64,000 bases of DNA, taken from NCBI GenBank assembly GCA_015062545.1, contig SUUL01000004.1, positions 1-64,000 of the forward strand, read 5' to 3'. Each line of letters starts with the position of its first letter. Positions within the stretch are counted from its first letter, which is position 1. Shown here one piece after another: positions 19,739 through 63,960 of this stretch. A program made the translations under genes and the position numbers. This stretch comes from Alphaproteobacteria bacterium (GTDB lineage: Bacteria; Pseudomonadota; Alphaproteobacteria; Rs-D84). Under the pieces are notes generated by a model. That model was not told the origin of the DNA. It saw only the letters and a list, made by a program, of their open reading frames with translations, and did no database searches.

Positions 19739-19835
19739 ATCTAATGACTTATCTAAAAGGAAAAACGATGGCTCATGTAACTTTTGTACACTACGCCATC
19801 GTTTTCCCTTTTATCTAAATCATTATCTTTAATTT
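19732..19835. repeat. 104-bp hairpin repeat, copy A
   Basis: The element is bounded by the inverted termini AAATTAAA and TTTAATTT. Further inward pairings are TAATGA/TCATTA and AAAAGG/CCTTTT. A central 11-bp stem, AAAACGATGGC (19762-19772) with GCCATCGTTTT (19795-19805), carries the 22-nt loop 19773-19794 (TCATGTA, 7 variable bases ending in TG, TACACTAC). It differs from copy B (63685-63788) at about one position. It begins inside the stop region of the preceding gene. Confidence 0.85.
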
Positions 19836-54763: not shown

Positions 54764-54865
54764 ATTAAATATAATAATTCATCTACAAGCGGTGCCGGCA
54801 ATTCATGTAGCGTCTGTACACTACATTGCCGGCACTACTTGTATCTAAATCATTATCTTTAATTT
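54762..54865. repeat. 104-bp hairpin repeat, copy C
   Basis: Same length and termini as copy A (AAATTAAA at 54762, TTTAATTT ending at 54865) but different stems: TACAAG/CTTGTA in place of AAAAGG/CCTTTT, and GTGCCGGCAAT (54792-54802) with ATTGCCGGCAC (54825-54835) in place of AAAACGATGGC/GCCATCGTTTT. The 22-nt loop (54803-54824) keeps TCATGTA, TG and TACACTAC. It starts in the stop codon of ftsK. Confidence 0.85.
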
Positions 54866-54945: not shown

Positions 54946-57051
54946 ATGAAGTTTATCAAAAGATTTTTTATAATGATGCTGTGCGTCATGCCGACATTGG
55001 CAGGCGCTCAGATTGCGACCACTGCGGGGGATAATTTAACGGCATGGAATGGAAACAGTGGTGCAACCAATAATAATAATTGGAATACAATGATGAACAG
55101 TCGTACGTTGGCAACGGCAAATATGCCAACGGCTGATTTTGGGAATTGTAATTCTTTGATTTTGCGTTGTGCGCAACCAAAATGCGCGGGGTGCACAACG
55201 GTTGATTTGGCGCGCTCTATTGTTGCGGGGTGTGTGAACAGTAATGCATCTTGCAAACAGTATGGTAATGAATTGATTGAATATATTTCTGCACAGATTG
55301 TTGCAAGCGCAAATTCAAAAATGCAAGAACAGCAAATGATGGCGCAACAGGCGGCCGCACAGCAGGCGGCTGCGCAGAGCAGTGCGCAGATGCAGCAAAT
55401 GCAACAACAAATGATGCAAATGCAACAGCAGATGCAGGAACAAAATGCGGCACAGATGGCACAAATGCAGGCGGCATTAGAAGAACAAAAGGCATTGGCC
55501 GCCCAAGCGCAGAGCGAGGCATTGGCCGCCCAGCAGGCACAATATGATGCTGCCGCTGCGCAATCTGCGGCCAGTGATGCTGCGGCAAATCAAACGGTTT
55601 CGGGACGTGAATTGACAACGGCACAACGTGTGGCAGCAGAATCGGGAATATCCGAAGATTTGTTGGCGCGTCAGACAATTTCTGGGGAAATTTTAACGGC
55701 GGTTGAAAATGCAGAATTGCAATTAAAAAACCTGAATGCCACCATGCAAGAGGCGTTTACTTATGCCGGCTGTGATAAACGTGGTAATAATTGCAAGGGG
55801 CCAAAACGTGTCAAGATGTTCAAGGAAAAAGCGCAGCGGTTCTTTCAGCCTTATGATGATATAGTTGATGAATTGTATGATGCCTTGGAATTGTCTTTGG
55901 CGGTTGGTGTTGATATTACAGATGTTATCATGATGTTAAATGGTGCGTGTAATCGTTGGGGTAAATATATGTGTCGTCCAGACAAAGGTGCGGATAATAG
56001 CAGTAACTTTGCCAAAGAATATCCAACATACAGCACGAAAGATTGTGTAAATGAAAAGTCTGTTGCGGGTGCGGAAGATTCTGTTGTTCGTGGCGGTCAA
56101 TCGTGTCGTATCGGGATGGTGGTTCCGCCCCAAGATGATGTCAGATGTGTTTTGACCAGTGTAATTACTGAAAATAACAGCAAAGATATTGAACGTCAGT
56201 GGGTTATGGAAAATGAAGATGATGATGGCTTGGTTCGGTTAGGGTGTGCAACATCTGCGTTGGATACGTTGGCGATATTTGGTCGCCGCAGTAATAAGAA
56301 GGCATCAACAGTATCGATGGAGATTTTAGAACGTATTTTATTACAAGATGCGCCAGAATATTCGTCAAACAATCGTTTTTCGCGTGGAAATTCGGAATCG
56401 GCACAGGTGGCCAAAACCAAATATTGCGCCGTTACCGAAGATGGGTATAATAATTTGGTTTCTGCATTGAATACGCAGAAATTGCCAAAGACGGTTTGTA
56501 TTAGTGATAAGAAGTTAACTAATATCGCCATGAAGGGTGCAATTATGGCATCTGGATTCAAGGGCAGTGGATTAAGTGACAGTGGTGTTGTTCCGGGGGT
56601 TGATGAAGAAGAATTGTGTGATTGGTGGGGGCTAAGAGCAAAAAGTATTGATGACAGTTGTGGTACAACATGGGATGATGCGTCCAAGCGTTGTGGTTAT
56701 TATGGACTGTGCAAGTTTGAAAATAGTGATTTTGTTAAGAGTGATATTGCAATGATAGATGCTGTTGGGTTGGAAAGAGAGTTAAATTATATGGAGAGTA
56801 AATTAGATAATTATGTTGAAGGTGTACAAAATAAAATGTGGTCAACTGCGGGGGGGGGGGGTAAAGTTGCTGAGCTGAAAGATGATGTGTATTGGCAAAG
56901 TCTTGCCCAGGTGGAGGATGAAGTTATAGAAGATGATCCGGCGTGGAAGTTAATTACACCAAAGGATACCTGTGAAGCAAAAGGAAAAAAGTGGGTGCCA
57001 AACGATTTTTATAAGGATAATGGTAAGTATGGAACATGTGTAGATAAATAA
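54946..57051 (+). CDS. Large exported Gln-rich protein with a G12 tract
   Basis: 701 aa from the ATG at 54946 (AGAGAGAG upstream). The signal peptide is MKFIKRFFIMMLCVMPTLAG (cleavage near AGA-Q). After a Cys-containing part (CAQPKCAGC near 67-75), a Gln/Ala/Met-rich coiled-coil region spans about 122-205. A middle domain with conserved-looking DDIVDELYDALELS (about 303-316) and many Cys follows. At codons 636-639 four Gly are encoded by part of a G12 run (56850-56861); beyond it lies a C-terminal module of about 62 residues with a C-x-A-x-G-x-x-W pattern. The protein is probably periplasmic or surface-exposed. A reading back to 54826 would pass through the promoter and repeat region. No family known to me. 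Confidence 0.75.
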   Translation: MKFIKRFFIMMLCVMPTLAGAQIATTAGDNLTAWNGNSGATNNNNWNTMMNSRTLATANMPTADFGNCNSLILRCAQPKCAGCTTVDLARSIVAGCVNSNASCKQYGNELIEYISAQIVASANSKMQEQQMMAQQAAAQQAAAQSSAQMQQMQQQMMQMQQQMQEQNAAQMAQMQAALEEQKALAAQAQSEALAAQQAQYDAAAAQSAASDAAANQTVSGRELTTAQRVAAESGISEDLLARQTISGEILTAVENAELQLKNLNATMQEAFTYAGCDKRGNNCKGPKRVKMFKEKAQRFFQPYDDIVDELYDALELSLAVGVDITDVIMMLNGACNRWGKYMCRPDKGADNSSNFAKEYPTYSTKDCVNEKSVAGAEDSVVRGGQSCRIGMVVPPQDDVRCVLTSVITENNSKDIERQWVMENEDDDGLVRLGCATSALDTLAIFGRRSNKKASTVSMEILERILLQDAPEYSSNNRFSRGNSESAQVAKTKYCAVTEDGYNNLVSALNTQKLPKTVCISDKKLTNIAMKGAIMASGFKGSGLSDSGVVPGVDEEELCDWWGLRAKSIDDSCGTTWDDASKRCGYYGLCKFENSDFVKSDIAMIDAVGLERELNYMESKLDNYVEGVQNKMWSTAGGGGKVAELKDDVYWQSLAQVEDEVIEDDPAWKLITPKDTCEAKGKKWVPNDFYKDNGKYGTCVDK
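56850..56861 (+). repeat. G12 homopolymer inside the 54946 gene
   Basis: Twelve consecutive G in a coding frame. With 12 G the frame continues as Ala-Gly4-Lys; with 13 G the next codon is TAA; with 11 G a TGA follows within about six codons. Such a tract should slip during replication. Confidence 0.85.
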
Positions 57052-57057
57052 TATAAA

Positions 57058-57807
57058 ATGAAAAACTGGAAAAATATTTTGTTCAAAGTTTTATCTGTGG
57101 CAATCGTAACGATGGTCGTGGTGCCGGTGTGGGCGGCGGATGACGGTTGTGATAATGATGATAATAATATGATTACACCAGAATTGGCACTGTGTTCAAC
57201 GCATGCATATAATGTAGGGGTGATTGAAAACCCCAGTGATTCTGGCGATCGGGCTTTTATGCAAGAAATTATCGCAATGAAAACAACACTGATAACGCAG
57301 CAAATGTTTCGGCAATATGAACAAATGGAATCTATGTTGAATCGTCTGAAGACCCAGTTGGAAAAAGCAGTTTTGACCAATGACTTGAAGGTCGCCAGTG
57401 GTAATACAGATGATGAGGAGGATATTAAGTCCAGTGGTTACAGGGCGACCGATGGAACTTATGTGGTTTGTGCGCAAAATTGTTTGAATAAGTATCAGAT
57501 GGCAGAAGCGTTGGATTGTTATGAAAAAAATCTGGCATGTGTGCAACAGCAGTCCGCAAATGGTGAAAATATAACATCGGAATTGAAAAAACAATTATGG
57601 GCAGATTGGAAACAATTAAGCAACTTGAAAGTAGCTGATGGGTCTGGGCCTTGTGGTCTTTCTAAGGATGTAGAAGAGGTTAAAGATGCCAAAGAGCTGA
57701 AATCTAAAAAGTTCAAGGCCCTGTTAAATGATATGCGCGGATGTTTGCGGAATAAGTATTCTGATTACCAGAACGGTCAATTGAAGTTAAAGGCTGGAAT
57801 AAAATAA
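57058..57807 (+). CDS. Exported protein, second gene of the pair
   Basis: 249 aa. MKNWKNILFKVLSVAIVTMV is the start of a signal peptide with cleavage likely after VWA (about residue 26). The mature protein is acidic and helical, with Cys in an isolated N-terminal part (DDGCDNDDNN, LALCSTHAY), a coiled-coil-like segment (about 80-110, QQMFRQYEQMESMLNRLKTQ) and a CAQNCLNKYQMAEALDCYEK stretch with regularly placed Cys (about 139-158). The family is not known to me, but the composition resembles that of the flanking exported proteins. It begins 6 bases after the 54946 gene, so the two are co-transcribed, and any frameshift in the G12 tract could affect its translation. A terminator follows at 57808. 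Confidence 0.7.
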   Translation: MKNWKNILFKVLSVAIVTMVVVPVWAADDGCDNDDNNMITPELALCSTHAYNVGVIENPSDSGDRAFMQEIIAMKTTLITQQMFRQYEQMESMLNRLKTQLEKAVLTNDLKVASGNTDDEEDIKSSGYRATDGTYVVCAQNCLNKYQMAEALDCYEKNLACVQQQSANGENITSELKKQLWADWKQLSNLKVADGSGPCGLSKDVEEVKDAKELKSKKFKALLNDMRGCLRNKYSDYQNGQLKLKAGIK

Positions 57808-57834
57808 ATATCCCGCGGGTGCGGGATTTTTATT
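57808..57834 (+). terminator. Terminator of the 54946-57807 operon
   Basis: ATCCCGC/GCGGGAT with a GGGT loop and TTTTATTT behind it, starting right after the stop codon. Confidence 0.85.
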
Positions 57835-57902: not shown

Positions 57903-57931
57903 TTTACATAATGGCAAAAAATTGATATAAT
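57903..57931 (+). promoter_or_regulatory. Promoter of the 58018 gene
   Basis: TTTACA (57903-57908), a 17-bp spacer and TATAAT (57926-57931). The predicted leader is about 80 nt and contains GGTTGGATTTCTGGGTAAAACC-like inverted sequence before the ribosome site AAGGAGAG. Confidence 0.65.
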
Positions 57932-58017: not shown

Positions 58018-60933
58018 ATGAAAGGGCAGAAATTTTTAAGTTCATTGAAAAATGCAATGGGAACGGTCATGTTGCTGGCGGGCGCGTTTTTCGTGTGTTC
58101 AACTGTGCTGTCTATCCGTACGGTGTTTGCAGACCCAATCGCACCGGTAAATATGGATGTTTATGGTGTGCAGTCTGGACGTGCAAGTGCACGTACATCT
58201 GGTCGTGCCAGTCCACGTGGTGCAAATTCTGCCACGTCACGCGCGACTGTTGCGCGCACGGCGGTTGCAAATGGACGTGTAAATGCAACGCCTGTACGTA
58301 ATGTGAATTCACGCACAGTTGCCAGTCGTACAACATCACCACGTGCAAATGCCACATCATCCAGAAATGTCGTATCGCGCGAGGCGAATGTTATAAATCG
58401 TGCAAATCAGGCGCGTAATGTTCGTGCACGTACGGCGGTCGCAAATGGTGTATCTACGGCCGCGGGGGCGCGTGTGTCCTTGGCAGGCAGTGCGGTTCGC
58501 GGTAACAAAGGTACAACATCCACCAATTATTCTTATCTGACAAATAAATTATATACGGGGAATTATTCCAATATTATTGATTCAACAACCGGATTGATTT
58601 CCGATGATGCGTATCAGGTATGTATGGAATCTTATTATACATGTATGGACGAAATTTGTACTGCGCGTAATGCCGCGCAACGCAGATGTGCGTGTGCGGG
58701 CCGTGTCAAGGCATTTGCAGATGCCGAAGCGCAACTGGAAACAGCAAATGAAGAACTTATCAAAGTGTCAGGTGAATTGGCGTTGTTGATTGCAAACAAG
58801 GGTAAAGATGTTTCGGTTGCTTTCCAATTAACAGATGCAGAAAAGGTTATGAACTGTGTTTCTTGGAAGGATACAACCAATCAATATGGTGTTAATTCGC
58901 AAGAAGCAATAGATTGGTGTTCAAATCATGGTATCTTTAATAATGGCAAAACGGTTACCAGTTGTGCGAAACCAGAATATTGTTCCGAAGCCGGAAATGA
59001 CTTTGGTTTTGATGTTTCCACGTTGGATGGAACGGGGTCTGATATTTTGGCAACACTGAAATCGTGGGCAGATGCCAAAGATAATACAATCACAATCTTG
59101 CAAGACGACAAAGAAGGTTTGTTGGGGGCGTTCGAAGGAATTTCAAATGTTGTTGGCAGTGTGTCCGGTATCAGTGGGGCATTTGCAGATGCCGAAGATT
59201 TAGAAGATACATTGGCGGAAACATGGGGATATGATTTGTTTGCACATGCACATAACGAAGTTTGTAGCCGCGTTTTGGATTCTTGCTTTAATGGTATTTA
59301 CGAAGCATGTGGTTCGCCATCTTCGTTTGGAGGCAAGTGCGCAAATGGTCAATCGTCAAATTGTCCGTTTAACTATAATTCCAAGATAGAAGTTTCCAAA
59401 GCAGGGGATATTACATTGAATGAACGTGGTGCAACAGTTACAACAAATTCCAGTGCAACATGCTTTGGTTATACATCTGCATCGGGCGACCCATATTCCA
59501 GTTTGCGTGGGCCGGTCGCAGATGCACGCCGCAGCATTATGAATAAATATCTGTTGGATGCAAATGCGGACTGTGATGCGTATGGTGAACAGTTGCGCAT
59601 AACCGCACAAAATATCGGTTATCAAAAGGTTGCCGCACAACAAGCGTTGCAACAGAAACGTTTGGAATTTGATAACGAAGAAAAAGAAACTGTCTTGGCC
59701 CAGGCAATAGAGGCAATGGGTAACTTTGATGAATGTATCAGTGAAATTATGGATTGCTATGAAACACAGGCACGTTCAAATGATAACTGGACAGATGCAC
59801 GTATCAAGACATACTGTGCACAGATTGCAAATGTTCCACATTGTTATGAAGAAATGATTTGTAATCCATCAATGGCACAATTCCGTGCGGTTATTGATGT
59901 CGCGGATAGTGGCAGCTGTAAAAACAGCCAAGACTATACCCAGAATACATGCCGCAATGTCGTGACATTGAATGAAATTATCAATGGATTTGGCAACAGT
60001 GTAGAGGCAGATTATATCGCAGCAGAAGGCACGGGTTCTTCAATCGCAATGCGTGAACAGTGCTTGATGGATGCGGGTATAGATGCCGTCAGAAATTGGT
60101 CTGCATTTGAAGAAGCAGCGGACAGGGTTAGATGTTCTGTTGCAGAATTGAATAATGTCAATGCAAAGCAAGGTTGGAAGAGAAGTGCAGATAAAGAATG
60201 TACAGAAATTACAGTATGTAAGGATGGTTATGAACTGAAGGGTGGTAAGTGTGAGGTGTCCGACTCTTCTGCTGATGACGATGATAATACGCCAGGTAAC
60301 GATGATAACCCATCTGGTTCCACCGGGGGGGGGGGGAATAAGGTTACTTGTTCTGCAAATCAGGTAGAATATAATAACCAATGTTATTACAAGACCCGGT
60401 CATGTGCGCCAATGCCCGCGAATGCCAAGTCGGGAACACAGACTTTTGAGAATGGCGCGTATAGTGATTGCGTAATTTCGGAATGTAACAATGGTTATAC
60501 TCTGGATAGTAATTTATGCCATGCGTCTAAAAAGGATTGTGATACGAAGGGAGAAGGCGTAAGCAAAGGGTATCAGGAATATAATAAAAACACTGGTTAT
60601 TATGGTGCCTGTATTATTACAGAATGCGTAGATGGCTATGAATTGCAGAATAATAGTTGCGTAAAGCAACAATCTGAGAGAGAAGCATGTGTCGATGCTG
60701 GCGGAGAATGGGAGGCGGATTCTTCAACATGTATTTGTTATGAGCCGGACGGTGATATATATGGGTTTAAGCCAGCTGAATGGAATCCAAAGACATTGAA
60801 ATGTGAGTGTGATAGCGGATTTGATAAACTCGGTAATGAATGTCACCCAGCTACAGAAGACGCATGCACAGATCTGGGTGGTAGCTGGATAGAAGATGAA
60901 GAAGGTGGAGATAGTCATTATTGTGAGATTTAA
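58018..60933 (+). CDS. Large exported Cys-rich protein with a G12 tract
   Basis: 971 aa. The signal segment lies at about 14-38 with cleavage near VFA-D. Residues about 50-165 form an Arg/Ala/Asn/Thr/Ser-rich, strongly basic low-complexity region in which RTAVANG occurs twice. The central 600 residues contain many Cys (for example YQVCMESYYTCMDEIC near 201-216, CACAG) likely in disulfides. Codons 770-773 are GGG four times, encoded by a G12 run (60325-60336). Behind it lie three or four repeats of a C-x-x-G-Y-E/T-L-x-x-x-x-C pattern, like EGF-type modules, and a last C-x-x-x-G-G-x-W module similar to the end of the 54946 protein. I do not know a family. The protein is probably at the cell surface. 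Confidence 0.75.
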   Translation: MKGQKFLSSLKNAMGTVMLLAGAFFVCSTVLSIRTVFADPIAPVNMDVYGVQSGRASARTSGRASPRGANSATSRATVARTAVANGRVNATPVRNVNSRTVASRTTSPRANATSSRNVVSREANVINRANQARNVRARTAVANGVSTAAGARVSLAGSAVRGNKGTTSTNYSYLTNKLYTGNYSNIIDSTTGLISDDAYQVCMESYYTCMDEICTARNAAQRRCACAGRVKAFADAEAQLETANEELIKVSGELALLIANKGKDVSVAFQLTDAEKVMNCVSWKDTTNQYGVNSQEAIDWCSNHGIFNNGKTVTSCAKPEYCSEAGNDFGFDVSTLDGTGSDILATLKSWADAKDNTITILQDDKEGLLGAFEGISNVVGSVSGISGAFADAEDLEDTLAETWGYDLFAHAHNEVCSRVLDSCFNGIYEACGSPSSFGGKCANGQSSNCPFNYNSKIEVSKAGDITLNERGATVTTNSSATCFGYTSASGDPYSSLRGPVADARRSIMNKYLLDANADCDAYGEQLRITAQNIGYQKVAAQQALQQKRLEFDNEEKETVLAQAIEAMGNFDECISEIMDCYETQARSNDNWTDARIKTYCAQIANVPHCYEEMICNPSMAQFRAVIDVADSGSCKNSQDYTQNTCRNVVTLNEIINGFGNSVEADYIAAEGTGSSIAMREQCLMDAGIDAVRNWSAFEEAADRVRCSVAELNNVNAKQGWKRSADKECTEITVCKDGYELKGGKCEVSDSSADDDDNTPGNDDNPSGSTGGGGNKVTCSANQVEYNNQCYYKTRSCAPMPANAKSGTQTFENGAYSDCVISECNNGYTLDSNLCHASKKDCDTKGEGVSKGYQEYNKNTGYYGACIITECVDGYELQNNSCVKQQSEREACVDAGGEWEADSSTCICYEPDGDIYGFKPAEWNPKTLKCECDSGFDKLGNECHPATEDACTDLGGSWIEDEEGGDSHYCEI
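60325..60336 (+). repeat. G12 homopolymer inside the 58018 gene
   Basis: Twelve G in frame (Ser-Thr-Gly4-Asn-Lys). With 13 G the frame reads GAA then TAA; with 11 G it stops at a TAG after about 9 codons. It lies directly before the C-terminal repeat region. Confidence 0.85.
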
Positions 60934-63684: not shown

Positions 63685-63788
63685 AAATTAAATCTAATGA
63701 CTTATCTAAAAGGAAAAACGATGGCTCATGTAACTTTTGTACACTACGCCATCGTTTTTCCTTTTATCTAAATCATTATCTTTAATTT
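63685..63788. repeat. 104-bp hairpin repeat, copy B
   Basis: Practically identical to copy A (about one difference over 104 bases, in the T/C run at the right stem) although 44 kb away. It begins 7 bases after the yebC stop codon and is the first of three units in tandem. Confidence 0.85.
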
Positions 63789-63881
63789 CTTTCGCTAATC
63801 TTGGGGTTGGGTGGAATCTCATGTATCGCATGTACACTACGATTCCCGATTTGTTTTTATCTAAATCATTATCTTTAATTT
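63789..63881. repeat. Hairpin repeat, copy D (left arm divergent)
   Basis: The right half (TTTTTATCTAAATCATTATC then TTTAATTT, 63856-63881) equals copy B. The central stem is GGAATC (63813-63818) with GATTCC (63841-63846) around the conserved loop 63819-63840 (TCATGTA, TCGCATG, TACACTAC). The left outer arm is not recognisable. Confidence 0.75.
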
Positions 63882-63960
63882 CTTACCATCGCAAGGAGTT
63901 GTTGGGCGATGGCTTATGTAACTTGGTGTACACTACGCCATCGTTTTTGGTTTTTTTATC
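63882..63960. repeat. Hairpin repeat, copy E (terminator-like)
   Basis: CGATGGC (63907-63913) pairs with GCCATCG (63937-63943) around a 23-nt loop (TTATGTA, ACTTGGTG, TACACTAC). A third segment, CCATCGC (63886-63892), can pair with GCGATGG (63906-63912) instead, so two hairpins compete. A T-rich stretch follows (TTTTTGGTTTTTTT). The outer arms TTTAATTT are missing on the right. Confidence 0.7.

Follow-up and report, generated by a model that had tools for sequence, protein, structure and literature searches.

Contingency loci are known mostly from cultured pathogens. In Campylobacter, where MutSL-type repair is missing, it is mostly whole genes that are switched on and off. A single poly-G tract of Campylobacter jejuni switches at about 2-3 x 10^-2 (PMC8437040). 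In Helicobacter canadensis, C-terminal phase variation is brought about by late poly-G tracts of G10 or more (Snyder et al. 2010, PMC2823697), and in Neisseria gonorrhoeae C-terminal phase variation is described as a third class, in addition to the transcriptional and translational ones (PMC5320596). Streptococcus agalactiae is summarized in the same source as a case in which repeats add or remove C-terminal cell-wall anchor motifs (Janulczyk et al. 2010, cited in PMC5320596).

The window, the whole stretch of 64,000 nucleotides analysed here, contains a gene for a 971-aa exported protein (58018-60933, + strand), named P0001 in the following. A sequence-only reading of this DNA had pointed to a G12 tract of four in-frame Gly codons in this gene, which we find at 60325-60336 (+ strand), where codons 770-773 are four GGG codons. 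The predicted outcome of a length change was exact as well: in the frame-shifted translation, one additional G gives ...GGGGE and an immediate stop (GAA-TAA), resulting in 774 aa, and one G less gives GGGG-IRLLVLQIR, nine further codons before a TAG, resulting in 782 aa. The short forms end in GSTGGGGE or GGGGIRLLVLQIR. Either product keeps the full core, the C-terminus being altered and the main protein spared, and the part that is lost if the tract shifts by 1 or 2 G is the Cys-rich C-terminal tail (residues 774-971; 60337-60930, + strand). The tract had been placed just before the Cys-rich series, and this holds for the tail that follows, but one Cys module (about residues 705-744) already precedes it. 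The out-of-frame stops had also been taken to point to selection, which is not borne out: both shifted frames stop within 10 codons at 23-30% of the codons in the P0001 and P0002 genes, so we rejected the stops as a sign of selection and give them no evidential weight.

P0001 starts with a putative hydrophobic N-terminal export signal (residues 1-39, ending FAD; 58018-58134, + strand), which was recognized by sequence inspection, is by the same means judged strongly conserved in 64 orthologues, and appears as one long helix in the structure model. The conserved core extends to about residue 697 (58018-60108, + strand). Orthologues at E<=1e-100 are present in 145 of the 156 genomes of the genus, and in 100 of the 103 high-quality ones. 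In most species the matches stop at residues 686-699 and the proteins end there plus a few residues, and roughly one in eight orthologues has a longer Cys-rich C-terminal extension. One orthologue (G044:C1:46183-47985) lies within a 24,690-aa open frame, which is probably a masked-base artefact.

Pfam, NCBIfam and PDB sequence searches gave no useful match for the P0001 family. The AlphaFold2 model, built on a 64-sequence alignment, has a mean pLDDT of 65.6. For the core it yields only weak helical-bundle matches, with Z up to 5.6, such matches being common by chance. The G12 tract lies inside a predicted disordered acidic/Gly linker (residues 744-785; 60247-60372, + strand) with a pLDDT below 50 and better-predicted parts on either side. 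Tail residues of about 790-890 reach a block pLDDT of mostly 77-94, and the tail (about 786-971) is predicted to be a separately folded Cys-rich unit. Since the tract sits in the low-confidence linker, a length change would remove the tail and leave a complete core. Residues of about 792-885 align weakly to R-spondin, the EphA2 CRD and a NELL2 EGF domain (Z 2.1-3.4), a faint likeness to disulfide-rich extracellular modules of the EGF-, furin- or TNFR-like kind, and Foldseek returned no hit at E<=0.001. Similar Cys-rich modules recur in giant proteins found in the genus, three of the places lying elsewhere in the source genome, and two of the giant proteins carrying them have additional Pfam matches, to the Listeria-Bacteroides repeat or to a TNF-receptor-like family.

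The sequence-only reading had further named a second tract of equal length in the gene of a neighbouring exported protein, and this tract is present at 56850-56861 (+ strand; codons 635-639) in P0002, a 701-aa exported coiled-coil protein (54946-57051, + strand; ATG at 54946). The first roughly 540 residues of P0002 are conserved and its C-terminus is variable and Cys-rich. One G more shortens it to 639 aa and one G less to 643 aa, in both cases with loss of a tail of about 62 aa with a terminal Cys motif (56862-57048, + strand). As had been claimed, both tracts precede a C-terminal Cys-rich module, and the two outlier tracts behave like C-terminal contingency loci. The Pfam, NCBIfam and PDB sequence searches likewise failed to name the P0002 family, its matches to PF03153 and PRK13328 being below the cut-off, probably due to low complexity, and rejected; the fold comparison, on a poor model (pLDDT 60), gave no match.

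The next gene after P0002 encodes a 249-aa exported protein (57058-57807, + strand), and because it starts just after the P0002 stop, phase changes of P0002 may also disturb its translation. The order ftsK, P0002, 249-aa exported protein and P0001 is kept in two relatives (G031 and G016), where a protein with a beta-barrel-like terminal Phe comes after P0001. These neighbours and the conserved order suggest that the cluster belongs to the cell envelope. Between the two tract-bearing units lie a terminator-like hairpin (57810-57827, + strand) and, upstream of P0001, a promoter-like site (57903-57931, + strand; TTTACA-17-TATAAT, 11/12), both consensus matches only, which make separate switching of the two tracts plausible. 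The window also holds five copies of a dispersed intergenic hairpin element (19770-19834, 54790-54864, 63720-63787, 63810-63880 and 63905-63950), in which a shared core ending in TGTACACTAC is framed by a palindromic stem whose sequence varies from copy to copy. In four of the five, TCTAAATCATTATCTTTAATT comes next; the numbers expected by chance are 0.05 and 0.01.

The relatives compared here are Alphaproteobacteria represented by metagenome-assembled genomes from the guts of deer, sheep, goat, cattle, yak and other animals; the comparison covered 156 species of the genus, each with one genome of about 0.6-1.1 Mb. This picture agrees with Candidatus Enterousia of the order Rs-D84 (PMC12306168), a putative assignment. 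Among the 35 nearest P0002 orthologues, the window species counted, eight have a G run of at least 7 near the C-terminus. The frame is ON in six of them (G12 in the window, G9 in G032, G8 in G013 and G100, G7 in G115 and G016) and OFF in two (G10 in G092 and G8 in G031). All tract-bearing orthologues except that of G100 fall inside the clade of the window species. With the window species left out, five runs of at least G8 occur in 34 x 300 nt of C-terminal sequence, compared with 0.07 expected from 681 kb of neighbouring DNA (Poisson P about 1e-8). The OFF tail of G092, read in its other frame, matches the in-frame tail of G013 (z=12), and that of G031 matches the in-frame tails of G057 and G010 (z=7.5-7.7), so the off-frame tails have escaped decay. 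The core tree places G092 and G013 as sisters, yet their tracts differ in length and phase, and the differences between their tails by codon position are 8, 6 and 13, most at the third. Decay would be expected of a dead frame, not of a switch that often reverts.

Both phases with an intact off-frame part are thus seen between species for the P0002 tract; the 60325 tract is known from one sequence. A further OFF state in L211 (G049) was left uncounted, the other frame being unlike a protein tail. Species-level OFF states could partly reflect homopolymer assembly errors. Some contigs stop at a G run or close to one, as if the assembly broke there; in contig G140:C35 (L240) the end directly follows a G6 in the part encoding the P0002 tail.

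None of 15 tailed P0001 orthologues has a long G run in the tail, their runs being 2-7 long, and in G140, which the P0002 tree places as sister to the window species, the P0001 tail is present and carries no G run above 5. The 60325 tract is private to the source species and is therefore a recent gain. Tracts of this kind do occur in P0001-like proteins elsewhere, with a G10 ON in G020 and a G9 OFF in G022. A P0001 paralogue of G140 carries a G20 (L169:2020-2039), which is placed before the core in an N-terminal low-complexity part with the frame OFF, making it a candidate classical on/off locus.

In a survey of 132 G tracts across the genus, many of the longest coding tracts are in exported proteins and others are in GT92 glycosyltransferases, with in-frame runs of G11, G9 and C10 in the GT92-type genes at L136, L118 and L206. 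Two exported-protein genes of G092 (L151, - strand, 2006 and 4677) carry a G9 and a G13 about 2.7 kb apart, and both genes continue in another frame. In G073 (L215:1957, - strand), a G12 in the OFF state splits a short-chain dehydrogenase (FabG-like) gene, the remainder of which lies in another frame. Many other runs of G9-G10, and runs of up to 11, are found in housekeeping genes or between genes. The preference of long tracts for exported proteins is a tendency, and with so many long runs at housekeeping and intergenic sites, a G run by itself is no proof of selection.

The sequence-only reading had called both tracts selected contingency loci. For the 56850 tract this gains strong support from the relatives; for the 60325 tract the support is indirect, coming from its length, its place, the neighbouring tract and, among the relatives, paralogues only. 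We consider it likely that the 60325 tract serves C-terminal phase variation as a simple-sequence contingency locus; judged from the sequence and the structure model, it probably works as a slippery switch adding or removing a folded Cys-rich end piece. Polymerase would slip on the poly-G at replication (slipped-strand mispairing), changing the tract length by one. At 12 (or 9, 15) G, P0001 would carry the separately folded Cys-rich tail of about 190 aa, and at other lengths modulo 3 it would stop a few residues past the tract, retaining the core and the first Cys module. The tail is absent by nature from most orthologues, so slippage would move P0001 back and forth between the short form typical of the genus and a tailed one. 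The 56850 tract would do likewise to the tail of P0002, and with two loci each switching a tail, up to four forms of the P0001/P0002 pair could exist per population. The P0001 tail may face the cell exterior and serve there as a variable module for binding or antigenicity. In the source species, slippage would take place with both mismatch-repair proteins present, MutL being encoded in the window and MutS outside it, unlike in Campylobacter, which is without MutSL-type repair. We counted this against the slippage explanation, and missing mismatch repair as a cause was rejected since both proteins were found. For this genome-reduced genus as a whole, we lean slightly towards a poly-G contingency system of exported Cys-rich proteins, in which linker slippage would toggle folded C-terminal modules on otherwise conserved cores and one population would show short and tailed forms in various combinations.

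Instead of being a selected switch, the 60325 tract could have arisen when GGG codons expanded by chance in a Gly-rich linker; it may slip and still be unselected, neutral or mildly harmful. Its presence in one species only and its absence from all tailed orthologues examined fit such an origin, and so do the tolerance of Gly linkers for extra Gly and the runs of 9-11 at housekeeping and intergenic sites of the genus. The distribution of run lengths argues otherwise. On the + strand of the window there are 44 G5, nine G6 and one G7 runs, none at 8-11 and then two G12 runs, and G8 words number 10, compared with 0.78 in the shuffled window. The whole 938,825-bp assembly contains three runs of at least G9, namely, the two G12 tracts and one G9 outside any clear gene, and two of these three share one gene cluster, in neighbouring transcription units. 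By a geometric tail, a genome should hold about 0.1 runs of at least 12. Codon choice also speaks against expansion by chance, as GGG makes up only 18% of Gly codon usage and poly-Gly is encoded by mixed codons wherever else it occurs in the window. Together with the evolutionarily recurrent tract of the same kind in the neighbouring gene, this leaves chance expansion an unlikely explanation.

Two further explanations are much less probable still. An assembly or sequencing error, by which the true tract would not have 12 G or the off-frame relatives would be miscounted, is suggested by the error-prone nature of homopolymers in metagenome assemblies, which all the relatives are, and by the G140 contig that stops just behind a G6 of the P0002 tail. 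However, a length of exactly 12 keeps both window genes in frame, lengths of 7, 8 and 9 do so in several relatives, and an artefact would not recur at the same gene region across several species, so we find such an error hard to credit. Slippage at the level of expression, where RNA polymerase or the ribosome yields both protein lengths from a single DNA sequence, is within the capacity of slippery homopolymers, as transcriptional slippage in Buchnera poly-A genes illustrates (PMC2831843). It would lead us to expect a fixed length across relatives, whereas the P0002 tracts vary between 7 and 12 G and change frame, and we judge it very improbable. The reading as a C-terminal contingency locus is the one we retain.

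These tracts are strong candidate contingency loci in gut commensals with genomes of about 1 Mb, uncultured as far as records show. A literature search combining the order Rs-D84 with phase variation found no report. With the tract in the linker, switching would drop a whole module and spare a core found in nearly every species of the genus. Existing metagenome reads could show whether the lineage phase-varies its envelope within one animal, and also whether the two neighbouring loci switch independently.

Among the closest known systems is that of H. canadensis, where a poly-G late in the reading frame changes length and alters the C-terminus without abolishing the protein; there the change mostly concerns a few residues and the variation was seen in reads, whereas in P0001 it concerns about 198 residues forming a predicted separate domain of an exported protein and the variation is one we infer (PMC2823697). 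The gonococcus likewise has membrane and secreted proteins among its C-terminal phase-variable genes, but it belongs to another lineage and its variation between strains has been shown (PMC5320596). S. agalactiae, as summarized in PMC5320596, shares the gain or loss by slippage of a functional C-terminal part of a surface protein, the switched part there being an anchor and in P0001 a Cys-rich module without a recognized anchor. C. jejuni resembles the present case in its long G tracts in surface-related genes (PMC8437040). The class of C-terminal phase variation is therefore already known, and the present case differs in its lineage, in how large the switched part is and in having a folded module set on a core that most relatives have tail-less.
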